NCBI GenBank assembly: GCA_018816865.1
Contig: JAHIUW010000036.1
Coordinates: forward strand, 1-64,000
DNA: 64,000 nucleotides
Direction of reading: 5' to 3'
DNA from: Pseudomonadota bacterium
GTDB taxonomy: Bacteria > Desulfobacterota > Desulfovibrionia > Desulfovibrionales > Desulfovibrionaceae
Part shown: positions 25,311 through 33,107 of the stretch, piece after piece
Layout: the number at the start of each line of letters is the position of its first letter
How positions within the stretch are numbered: the first letter of the stretch is position 1
Made by a program: the position numbers and the translations under genes
Notes under the pieces: generated by a model
The model's input: only the letters and a program-made list of their open reading frames with translations
What the model was told of the DNA's origin: nothing
Database searches by the model: none

Positions 25311-25328
25311 AAGCGCCTGAGGGCGCTT
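25311..25328 (-). terminator. Terminator after the duplicated coiled-coil cassette
   Basis: AAGCGCC and GGCGCTT pair around TGAG; on the minus strand a run of eight T residues follows. Outer CCCCAA/TTGGGG can extend the stem, so it may also act on the convergent histidine kinase gene. Confidence 0.75.
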
Positions 25329-25359: not shown

Positions 25360-25791
25360 TCAGGAGGGGACCTTGGACTTGGCCAGGGTCAACTCGGCCG
25401 AGGTGATCACATCCATCATCAGCAGAACATCGCCTAGGCCATAGGGGCTCTTGGAGTCCTCCTTGAACTTGGCGGCCTTCTCGATGTCCGCGGGGGTGAT
25501 GATCTTGACAGCCAGCAGGAAATCCTCCGGGGTTTCGAAGACCTCGTCGCTCCCCAGCGACGGCAGTCCGCGGCGCGCGCCCAGCAGGGACACCCGCTCG
25601 TTGACCAATTCGCCCTCTTCCTCCTGGAGTCTGGCGCGCTCGGCAGTCAACTCCTCGATCTTGACCACAAACCGGGACACACTCTGCCGCAGGCGTTGGG
25701 CCTCATCGCCATAGGCTTTGGTCATCTTGATGTAGAGTACGGGCGTACTCAGCAGCACCAGTCCAAGAATGAGATAGATATAGATGGTCAT
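25360..25791 (-). CDS. Membrane-anchored coiled-coil protein, cassette 1 second gene (MshEN-like C-terminus)
   Basis: A 143-aa protein of no recognised named family. An N-terminal helix (YIYLILGLVLLSTPVLYI) is followed by a coiled coil (about residues 30-75) and a C-terminal helical pair with ITPADIEKAAKF, SKSPYGLGDVLLMMD and ITSAELTLAKSK. This pattern resembles the MshEN/GspE N-terminal domain, but the conserved Arg before LG is Gly and a conserved Gly is Asp. It is a paralogue of the gene at 26381, sharing most of the C-terminal 35 residues. ATG 25791 follows the partner gene's stop by 16 bp. No function assigned. Confidence 0.8.
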   Translation of the reverse strand: MTIYIYLILGLVLLSTPVLYIKMTKAYGDEAQRLRQSVSRFVVKIEELTAERARLQEEEGELVNERVSLLGARRGLPSLGSDEVFETPEDFLLAVKIITPADIEKAAKFKEDSKSPYGLGDVLLMMDVITSAELTLAKSKVPS

Positions 25792-25807
25792 CAGGCATTC
25801 ACCTTGT

Positions 25808-26254
25808 TCATGACAGTTCCTGTGTGGCGCGTTCCATGTCCTCGGGAGAAACGATCCCCAAGATGACCAGGGCCTCCTCGACGGTGGACAGGCTCTTTGT
25901 CTCCTCAAGATGCTTGGAGACCCGCAGCAAATCCTGGTCGGTCAGCTTGCCCATGGTCTTGAGGACGCCGATGATGTCCTGCTGCGGGGCGTCGGCATTG
26001 GCCGCGGCCTGTTTTTCCTGCTCGATCATCTGCCGCAACCCAGCCAGTTCCTTACGGATCAACTCAACCCGCTCCTGCCTGAGCAACACATCCCTGGACA
26101 GGGACTTGTAATCCTTCTCCAGCCCCTTCAGATCGCCCAGCAAGGCGCGAATCTCATGATTCAGCTTGCGGCGCTTGTTCAGCGCCAGCCCGCCCAGCAC
26201 GATGAAATAGACCAGCAGGGCAACGCACATCAGTGCCACGATCTGTATATCCAC
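25808..26254 (-). CDS. Membrane-anchored coiled-coil protein, cassette 1 first gene
   Basis: A 148-aa protein with an N-terminal helix (IVALMCVALLVYFIVLGGLAL), a basic stop-transfer NKRRK and a coiled coil (about residues 30-88). The C-terminus has GKLTDQDLLRVSKHL and TVEEALVILGIVSPEDMERA, again similar in rhythm to MshEN-type helices. It is a paralogue of the gene at 26832, sharing TVEEAL-LILGIV--EDM. Together with its downstream neighbour it forms one of two tandem copies of a two-gene unit. Probably inner-membrane, coiled coil in the cytoplasm. Function unknown. Confidence 0.8.
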   Translation of the reverse strand: MDIQIVALMCVALLVYFIVLGGLALNKRRKLNHEIRALLGDLKGLEKDYKSLSRDVLLRQERVELIRKELAGLRQMIEQEKQAAANADAPQQDIIGVLKTMGKLTDQDLLRVSKHLEETKSLSTVEEALVILGIVSPEDMERATQELS

Positions 26255-26305
26255 GCGAATCCTCTCCTGGTTGATCAGCCTTGCAACGATACATCATATC
26301 AGCAG

Positions 26306-26321
26306 TGCAAGGCAATCGCCA
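26306..26321 (-). promoter_or_regulatory. Possible sigma54-type promoter of cassette 1
   Basis: On the minus strand the site reads TGGCGATTGCCTTGCA: TGGC and TTGC elements with the required GG-N10-GC spacing. It would start transcription about 40 nt before the ATG at 26254, inside the 126-bp gap between the two cassettes. Confidence 0.35.
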
Positions 26322-26380
26322 GCACACAACGCACAGTCCTAAACACCCCGAGGCATGTCCACTCAACGGCCCCTCCCTCC

Positions 26381-26821
26381 TCAGCCACCGACCTTGGACT
26401 TGGCCAGGGACAGTTCAGCCGGGGAGATGGTGTCCATCATCACCAGGATCTCGCCCAGATCATAGGGGCTTTTGGAGCCATCCTTGAACCGCGCGGCCTT
26501 GTTGACATCCTCTGGCGTGATTATCTCCGCCGCCAGCAGATACTCCTGGGGAGTCTTGTATTGTCCTTTATCCTCGCCACCCAGGGAGGGCAAGGCCCGG
26601 GCCGCCTCGACCAACTCCACATGCTGCCTGTGGAGATCTTCCTCCTGGGCCACAAGCCCGGCCAGATCGACATCCAATTCGTCCCTGGCCACCGCCAACT
26701 GCGCCACCTGCTGCTCAAGACGCCGGACCTCGTCTGCGTAGGCCCGGGTCATGCGAACGAAGTACACGGGGCACATGACCAGGAGCAACAGGCCGATGAT
26801 GGAGAGATAAAAGATCATCAT
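26381..26821 (-). CDS. Membrane-anchored coiled-coil protein, cassette 2 second gene (MshEN-like C-terminus)
   Basis: A 146-aa paralogue of the gene at 25360. It has an N-terminal helix (FYLSIIGLLLLVMCPVYFV), RMTRAYADE, a coiled coil (about residues 28-70) and a C-terminal region with ITPEDVNKAARF, SKSPYDLGEILVMMD and ISPAELSLAKSKV. The shared YxLGxxLxMMDxIxxAELxLAKSKV pattern shows common descent. ATG 26821 has GAGGAA 6-7 nt upstream and follows the partner's stop by 10 bp. In the degenerate MshEN-like motif the Arg before LG is Asp here. Function unknown. Confidence 0.8.
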   Translation of the reverse strand: MMIFYLSIIGLLLLVMCPVYFVRMTRAYADEVRRLEQQVAQLAVARDELDVDLAGLVAQEEDLHRQHVELVEAARALPSLGGEDKGQYKTPQEYLLAAEIITPEDVNKAARFKDGSKSPYDLGEILVMMDTISPAELSLAKSKVGG

Positions 26822-26831
26822 ACCGTGTTCC

Positions 26832-27299
26832 TCACATGACCTCCCGGGACGCGTCCTGCATGTCCTCGGAAGTGACAATCCCCAGGATCAGCAGTGCCTC
26901 CTCGACCGTGGAGCCGCTCTTGGCATTTTCCAGATAGGTCCTGGCGCGCAGTACATCCTCTGCCGTCACCCTGCCCATGCATTGCAATGCCTGGACCAGG
27001 GTGCGTCTGGGAGCGTTTTCTGCAGCAGCGGCTGCAACGGCACGCTCCTGCTCCCTGATCAATTCCAGATCTTGAATTTGCTTAACGAGATTGGAAATCT
27101 TGGCCTCGCGAATCAGCACATCAGCCTTGAAGTCCTTGACCTCGTTGTCCAGATCAAAGGCCTGCCGACGCAGTGAGCGAATCTTGCTCAAGTAATTTGC
27201 GCGAACGTTGCGGACGATACCACCAAAGACGATGGCGATTATCAGTAGCACGACGCATGCCAAGGCAGCAGTAAGCATCAATCCCCCCAAAAAAGCCAA
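26832..27299 (-). CDS. Membrane-anchored coiled-coil protein, cassette 2 first gene
   Basis: A 155-aa paralogue of the gene at 25808. The N-terminal helix is LTAALACVVLLIIAIVFGGIV, followed by a basic stretch and a coiled coil (about residues 35-92). An Ala-rich linker (AVAAAAAENAP) leads to GRVTAEDVLRARTYL and TVEEALLILGIVTSEDMQDA. ATG 27299 is preceded by GGGGGG. It starts the four-gene set, 115 bp after the GlcD-like gene stop. The conserved two-gene order in both copies suggests that the two proteins act together. Confidence 0.8.
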   Translation of the reverse strand: MAFLGGLMLTAALACVVLLIIAIVFGGIVRNVRANYLSKIRSLRRQAFDLDNEVKDFKADVLIREAKISNLVKQIQDLELIREQERAVAAAAAENAPRRTLVQALQCMGRVTAEDVLRARTYLENAKSGSTVEEALLILGIVTSEDMQDASREVM

Positions 27300-32220: not shown

Positions 32221-33107
32221 CTCGACTCCGACTCCGTCCGGGGCTCTCTTAGCCCTTGGCGATCCATTTTCAACAACAACTCGTAGGCGGTCTTGGCCGT
32301 CCAGCCCGGGGCCTGCGCGGAGGCCCGGCGCGCAACTTCCTTGGGCTTGCCCCCGAGCTCACACTCGCGGACCAGAAGAGCACGCATCCGGTCCTCGGTC
32401 GTTTGGTCTTCGGCCTCGGGCGGGCCGATGACCACGGTGAACTCGCCCCGCTCGGGGATATCCAGTTCATCCAGGGCATCCAACCGACCCAGAATAAATT
32501 CCTCGTGCAGCTTGGTCAATTCCCTGGCCAAACTGAGCTCGCGTCCCCCCAGGGCCTCGAACGCTGTTTGCAAGGTGGTCTGCAGGCGATTCTTGCGCTC
32601 GAAGAACACCAGCGTGGCCCCGCTGGCTCCATAACGCTCGAACATCCGCCGCTGCTCTCCGGCCTTGCGCGGCAAAAAACCCAAAAAAGTAAAAGGCTGA
32701 GGGGCCAGACCGCAGGCCATGAGCGCAGTCAGCGGAGCCGATGGTCCCGGAACCGGGACCACTTTCAGCCCGGCCTCGCGGCAGGCGCGCACCAGGGTGA
32801 ATCCGGGATCGGACATCAGTGGCGTCCCTGCATCGGAAATCAGGGCCACGGACTTGCCCTCGGCCAGCATGGACAGCACCTGGGCACGCTTACCGTCCTC
32901 GTTGTGCTCGTGGAAGCTGACAAAGCCATGGGACTTGATGCCCAGACGCTGAAACAGCAGCCCGGCCCGGCGCGAGTCCTCGGCCAGGACGATATCCGCC
33001 CCGGACAGCACCTCGCGGGCACGGGGCGAAAGGTCGCCGATGTTCCCCAGGGGCGTGGCCACGATGTACAATGCCCCGGGGAGTACGGCTGCGGTTTCGT
33101 CGGTCAT
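32217..33107 (-). CDS. rsmI: 16S rRNA (cytidine1402-2'-O)-methyltransferase RsmI
   Basis: Methylates the 2'-OH of C1402 in the ribosomal decoding centre. The 296-aa tetrapyrrole-methylase-fold protein has LYIVATPLGNIGDLSPRA at the N-terminus, ADIVLAEDSR, SDAGTPLMSDPG, and PGPSAPLTAL. Two adjacent ATGs exist (33110 and 33107); 33107 has the better 7-nt spacing from AGAGG. It follows yraN by 9-11 bp. Confidence 0.95.
   Translation of the reverse strand: MTDETAAVLPGALYIVATPLGNIGDLSPRAREVLSGADIVLAEDSRRAGLLFQRLGIKSHGFVSFHEHNEDGKRAQVLSMLAEGKSVALISDAGTPLMSDPGFTLVRACREAGLKVVPVPGPSAPLTALMACGLAPQPFTFLGFLPRKAGEQRRMFERYGASGATLVFFERKNRLQTTLQTAFEALGGRELSLARELTKLHEEFILGRLDALDELDIPERGEFTVVIGPPEAEDQTTEDRMRALLVRECELGGKPKEVARRASAQAPGWTAKTAYELLLKMDRQGLREPRTESESS

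Follow-up and report, generated by a model that had tools for sequence, protein, structure and literature searches.

Gene array and protein anatomy

The window, by which we mean the whole 64,000-nt stretch of DNA analyzed, belongs to a draft assembly of 3.64 Mb in 42 contigs, whose gene content points to a sulfate reducer of the Desulfovibrio group, and carries on its minus strand four small genes in the order A1-B1-A2-B2 (25360-27278; Table 1). They form two cassettes, with gaps of 10 nt (A1/B1) and 16 nt (A2/B2) between the genes and of 126 nt between the cassettes; A1 and A2 share 40% identity, and B1 and B2 share 50%. The window neighbors of the array, glcD and a sensor kinase gene, are non-flagellar, and no sigma-70-like promoter for the array was seen in a simple scan. 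An earlier sequence-only reading had described four open reading frames in two consecutive cassettes, and these are present with the shared motifs as claimed. Its length of 155 aa for A1 relies on a TTG at 27299, which is the less likely start; most likely, translation begins at the ATG at 27278 (148 aa), since this codon is preceded by GGGGGGA and agrees with the G001 orthologue.

Table 1. Features of the A1-B1-A2-B2 array in the window
Feature	Coordinates	Strand	Remarks
A1, first gene of cassette 1	26832..27278	-	148 aa; membrane helix, long helix and MshEN-like head
A1 membrane helix, predicted N-out/C-in	27213..27269	-	charge topology
A1 C-terminal MshEN-like four-helix domain	26835..26999	-	ligand residues lost
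B1, second gene of cassette 1	26381..26821	-	146 aa; starts 10 nt past A1
B1 membrane helix	26765..26821	-	charge topology
B1 C-terminal MshEN-like domain	26384..26551	-	sub-threshold NCBIfam NF053729 match; model residues 91-146
A2, first gene of cassette 2	25808..26254	-	148 aa; GTG start preceded by AGGAGAGGA
A2 membrane helix	26183..26239	-	charge topology
A2 C-terminal MshEN-like domain	25811..25978	-	position from alignment
B2, second gene of cassette 2	25360..25791	-	143 aa; starts 16 nt past A2
B2 membrane helix	25729..25785	-	charge topology
B2 C-terminal MshEN-like domain	25363..25530	-	sub-threshold NF053729 match
Intrinsic-terminator-like hairpin 3' of B2	25311..25328	-	between convergent B2 and sensor-kinase genes

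A second species of the genus has an identical four-gene array with the same flanks, its proteins being 66-76% identical to those of the window, and all four genes show dN/dS values of 0.10-0.17 between the two species. Judged from this conservation, all four are under purifying selection and hence genuine genes.

Each of the four proteins has the single N-terminal membrane helix claimed for it, and in 42 of the 42 full family members examined K/R residues occur only after this helix, which predicts an N-out/C-in topology. AF2 models of B1 (pLDDT 82.6) and A1 (pLDDT 86.8), both monomers built from 4-sequence alignments, consist of a single unbroken helix (75 or 94 residues) followed by four short helices that correspond to the C-terminal helical module of the sequence-only reading. 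The coiled coil that it had assigned to all four proteins is likely but unproven: the models contain one long helix each, and heptad periodicity is significant for A2 only, being weak for A1 and B1. The predicted layout is a short periplasmic N-terminus, a signal anchor, a long cytoplasmic helix, and a four-helix head.

A C-terminal head of the MshEN/GSPII fold

Profile comparisons and predicted structures identify the C-terminal module as a degenerate version of the MshEN/GSPII (ND0) domain known from PilB/GspE ATPases. When 42 heads were compared by hhalign with 30 true MshEN motifs drawn from the same order, 53 of 53 columns aligned (probability 90.4, E of 1.7e-7), reversed and shuffled profiles giving probabilities of at most 0.14, and two tandem 24-residue repeats align across the entire 53 residues of the head. 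At E<=1, the NCBIfam MshE motif NF053729 picks up 13 of 19 members (best, 6.6e-9), with 19.1 bits for B1, 17.1 for B2, and 36.7 for the best relative; A1 and A2 are unmatched, and no member reaches the curated cut-off of 38 bits. The A1 and B1 models contain the four-helix bundle fold (MshEN_N/ND0), and in Foldseek searches of the PDB the best 16 matches of B1 and the best 6 of A1 are all MshEN/GSPII domains, including MshE and PilF, mostly with an rmsd of 1.5-2 Å over 50-58 residues; taken alone, the Foldseek E-values (0.3-1) are weak, which is no surprise for a domain of 55 residues. VIA gave MshEN a Z of 9.4. Coiled coils dominated the PDB sequence search, in which PilF and MshE were the sole matches to the head. 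In genomes outside the order, matches to the head part of the profile lie in large ORFs; of 12 that were checked, 5 encode PilB/GspE-type ATPases, which have the head at their N-terminus.

The sequence-only reading had recognized no named family. This holds for the full proteins, which are named by none of Pfam, NCBIfam, PADLOC, and PHROGs, scattered coiled-coil and membrane matches in the libraries having been rejected as compositional; it does not hold for the C-terminal head, the only part with a strong profile match to a known family, where hhalign and Foldseek lead to the same domain. The C-terminal domain of fumarase C was also tried as a relative of the head and rejected (VIA Z of 4-5, below MshEN). 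It resembles the MshEN four-helix fold and has a half-motif, which in the organism's own fumarase (L075) occurs by chance, and the likeness is possibly convergent or the trace of an ancient relation.

The heads share with the MshEN/GSPII-ND0 domains of Vibrio MshE, Thermus PilF, and Xanthomonas PilB a four-helix unit of about 53 residues with two 24-residue repeats, in which the hydrophobic core and some turn glycines are retained and the predicted fold lies within 1.5-2 Å. They differ in having lost nearly all of the c-di-GMP residues and in their position, which is the C-terminal end of a membrane-anchored rod rather than the N-terminus of an ATPase; neither a Walker-motif ATPase nor an ND1 subdomain follows, as the proteins (143-148 aa) stop after the fourth head helix.

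MshEN domains carry the ligand motif RLG...LxxxLxxQ in two repeats (PMC5013675), and in none of the four heads are these ligand residues present in both repeats. All four window proteins have lost R1, G3, L21, Q24, R/K30, L50, and Q53, and both A proteins also G32; the hydrophobic core positions of the motif are retained in the four heads, and the second-motif LG is retained in the B heads. The GSPII-A domain of PilF, with fewer changes than the window heads, does not bind c-di-GMP (PMC12002112), and Xanthomonas PilB has an ND0 without c-di-GMP residues and an N-domain that docks PilZ (PMC8389850). Both resemble the heads in combining the MshEN fold with the lack of a functional c-di-GMP motif, and in PilB the N-domain works in protein docking; however, they are parts of pilus ATPases, whereas the window proteins are small, stand-alone, paired membrane proteins. 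Going by the aligned residues, the heads are very probably binding-dead for c-di-GMP. A true membrane-anchored c-di-GMP receptor with a divergent MshEN motif would agree with a fold identical in kind to MshEN, with the sub-cut-off match of 2 of the 4 heads to the c-di-GMP motif model, and with the LG kept in the B heads, but the positions gone from every head (and G32 from two) and the failure of the less altered PilF domain to bind the ligand make such a receptor highly improbable.

Other MshEN-like motifs were observed in the same genome. L069 (G000:C22, about 32794-32871, outside the window) is a 730-residue CheA-like frame in which a canonical RLGE...Q MshEN motif separates the N-terminal part from the kinase core, and ORFs of ~700-765 aa with similar matches are present in many relatives; their sequences suggest a c-di-GMP-responsive chemotaxis kinase. 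L070 (G000:C30, 10280-10438) is a membrane-bound class III adenylate cyclase-like protein with a degenerate MshEN-like motif at its start.

The two-gene cassette and its duplications

In 74 of 87 genomes, the full gene has a co-oriented second membrane-helix gene as its immediate neighbor, compared with 5 of the 384 other ORFs in the same loci, and the two genes usually overlap or are within 60 nt of each other. In most genera this partner lacks the head and is 62-116 aa long (the "mini"); it precedes the full gene in the window's family and follows it in families f2-f4. The window's genus has a full-length first gene and heads on both partners. In the f2-f4 loci that were read (L027-L035), the unit, with its full-to-mini order opposite to that of the window's family, lies antisense, flanked by a TPR gene and a lipoprotein gene. 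Neighborhoods vary (glcD, leuB, recQ, an HD-domain response regulator, and TPR/FBPase), and no conserved neighbor pathway of the cassette was found; because they differ so widely, the pair is the constant element. The sequence-only reading had suggested a heteromeric assembly of the two proteins, and the adjacency of the genes across many unrelated neighborhoods strongly supports a functional pair. Separation was seen in g21 and g50 only, which have two unlinked full genes each, and g14 has one gene. A second locus of genus g7 (L164, L165, and L168) holds two headless minis in tandem (77+84, 90+81, and 82+78 aa), a pair without any MshEN-like head.

The persistence of the pair while neighboring pathways change supports a two-protein assembly, and the A and B products probably form a hetero-oligomer. 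The homology of A and B and the unlinked copies of g21 and g50 would also suit paralogous homo-oligomers that act independently side by side, with duplication only raising dosage; we consider this improbable, since order and co-orientation survive many relocations and about five whole-cassette duplications, and since the partner, mostly headless, is non-redundant. Anatomy and pairing, taken together, we hold with high confidence. FtsL/FtsB, PilN/PilO, and GspL/GspM are likewise single-span helical proteins from adjacent genes; their rods are periplasmic and their topology is N-in, opposite to the N-out/C-in topology predicted for all 42 members of the window family, and no sequence match to these families above the cut-off was found. 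Matches to the membrane helix and coil at G000:C22 and G001:C1:862 kb were set aside, as they resemble Lpp-type lipoproteins.

Sequence comparison shows the A and B proteins to be mutually homologous, and in a tree the A-type and B-type proteins occupy separate clades (support of 99/97 and 95/89). In both clades, the split between cassettes 1 and 2 predates the species split and postdates the divergence from genus g48, which agrees with a one-step duplication of the whole two-gene unit; the parallel splitting of the clades bears out the tandem duplication proposed earlier and supports a single ancestral A-B cassette, duplicated as one unit. At the matching locus of g48, which adjoins glcD near secA, G060 has one cassette and G088 has a four-gene array whose third gene lacks a head. 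Independent tandem cassette duplications occur in G162, G187, G061, and G088, whole-cassette tandem duplication being seen in about five lineages. The A rod scores 31.8 bits against the g48 mini and the B rod scores 19.3 bits, neither score being attained by any shuffle; the A rod is thus the nearer to the mini, and A may be a mini that acquired a head.

Distribution, flagellar association, and possible function

Of 297 genomes from the order, 94 contain full-length members (we counted a genome as a carrier if the profile search gave a strong match), and none of the genomes sampled elsewhere in the phylum does. FliM is present in all 94 carriers, and the cassette is absent from all 45 FliM-negative genomes (p of 1e-8, phylogeny ignored). 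Canonical FliM is found in 10/10 carriers versus 1/8 non-carriers of family f2 (p of 2.5e-4, phylogeny ignored), family f3 follows the same trend (3/3 versus 1/7 for FliM), and inside genera g46 and g35 the cassette and canonical FliM are absent together. In g21 and g50, fliM is immediately preceded by one of the copies, which shares its orientation. The cassette is not a core part of the motor, as 158 of 252 flagellated genomes lack it. From its occurrence only with FliM, its absence where canonical FliM has been lost, and the fliM-adjacent copies in two genera, we infer a flagellum-tied partner; on these genomic patterns, a flagellar link has slightly less than an even chance, and genome reduction in general is a confounder that may account for the joint loss of FliM and the cassette.

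The cassette moves, persists, and duplicates as one unit. We propose that its A and B products pair via their membrane helices and long helices into a bundle of rods, a hetero-oligomer at the inner membrane whose binding-dead MshEN heads would be presented to the cytoplasm and serve constitutively for docking. The mini of most relatives would provide the rod only, while the window's genus would have heads on both partners; with less force, the docked partner may come from flagella or flagellum-dependent behavior. As a whole, this explanation (a hetero-oligomeric membrane scaffold with c-di-GMP-blind docking heads, linked to the flagellum) is the one we favor, though tentatively. Its more specific form, an order-specific flagellar accessory of hetero-oligomeric inner-membrane rods in which an MshEN receptor has turned into a fixed docking head, with tandem isoforms in the window's genus, is more doubtful.

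The same scaffold could have a non-flagellar role, in cell polarity, the envelope, or division, the FliM link then stemming from lifestyle and genome reduction. Most neighborhoods are indeed non-flagellar (glcD, leuB, recQ, and TPR/FBPase), and the flagellated genomes without the cassette are numerous; yet co-occurrence with FliM is strictly one-way, the absences coincide within g46 and g35 and in family f3, and two genera have fliM-adjacent copies, so that we rate this role as possible but rather unlikely. The homology of the head to the GSPII N-domain of PilB/GspE and the position of the gene next to pilT/pilU in families f2-f4 would, together with the PilZ-docking N-domain of PilB and its ND0 devoid of c-di-GMP residues, fit an accessory to the assembly ATPases of type IV pili or type II secretion, with a head that imitates their N-domain and vies with it for its docking site (PilM/GspL/PilZ). 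About 33 of the 94 carriers, however, have no T2SSE match better than ~1e-69 (six candidates scored per genome) and show at most PilT-grade ATPases, with no assembly ATPase seen among these candidates, and such ATPases are therefore not required; moreover, the heads lack ND1, which contacts GspL and most of PilZ, and the ancestral pilT-pilU-FBPase-tsaD locus persists in G000 and G001 without the gene. A pilus or secretion accessory is accordingly a poor candidate.

Neither the literature on MshEN/GSPII nor a search with putative locus tags of the D. vulgaris fliM region yielded a description of such proteins. The fold is already known; the protein family, the paired cassette, and its order-wide distribution are unnamed in libraries and in the searchable literature. 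To conclude, the analysis defines an unannotated two-gene system, present in about one-third of the genomes sampled from a single bacterial order, and connects its head with a well-studied signaling fold. This suggests that MshEN domains have also been put to use outside the ATPases of pili and secretion systems, as ligand-free docking modules.
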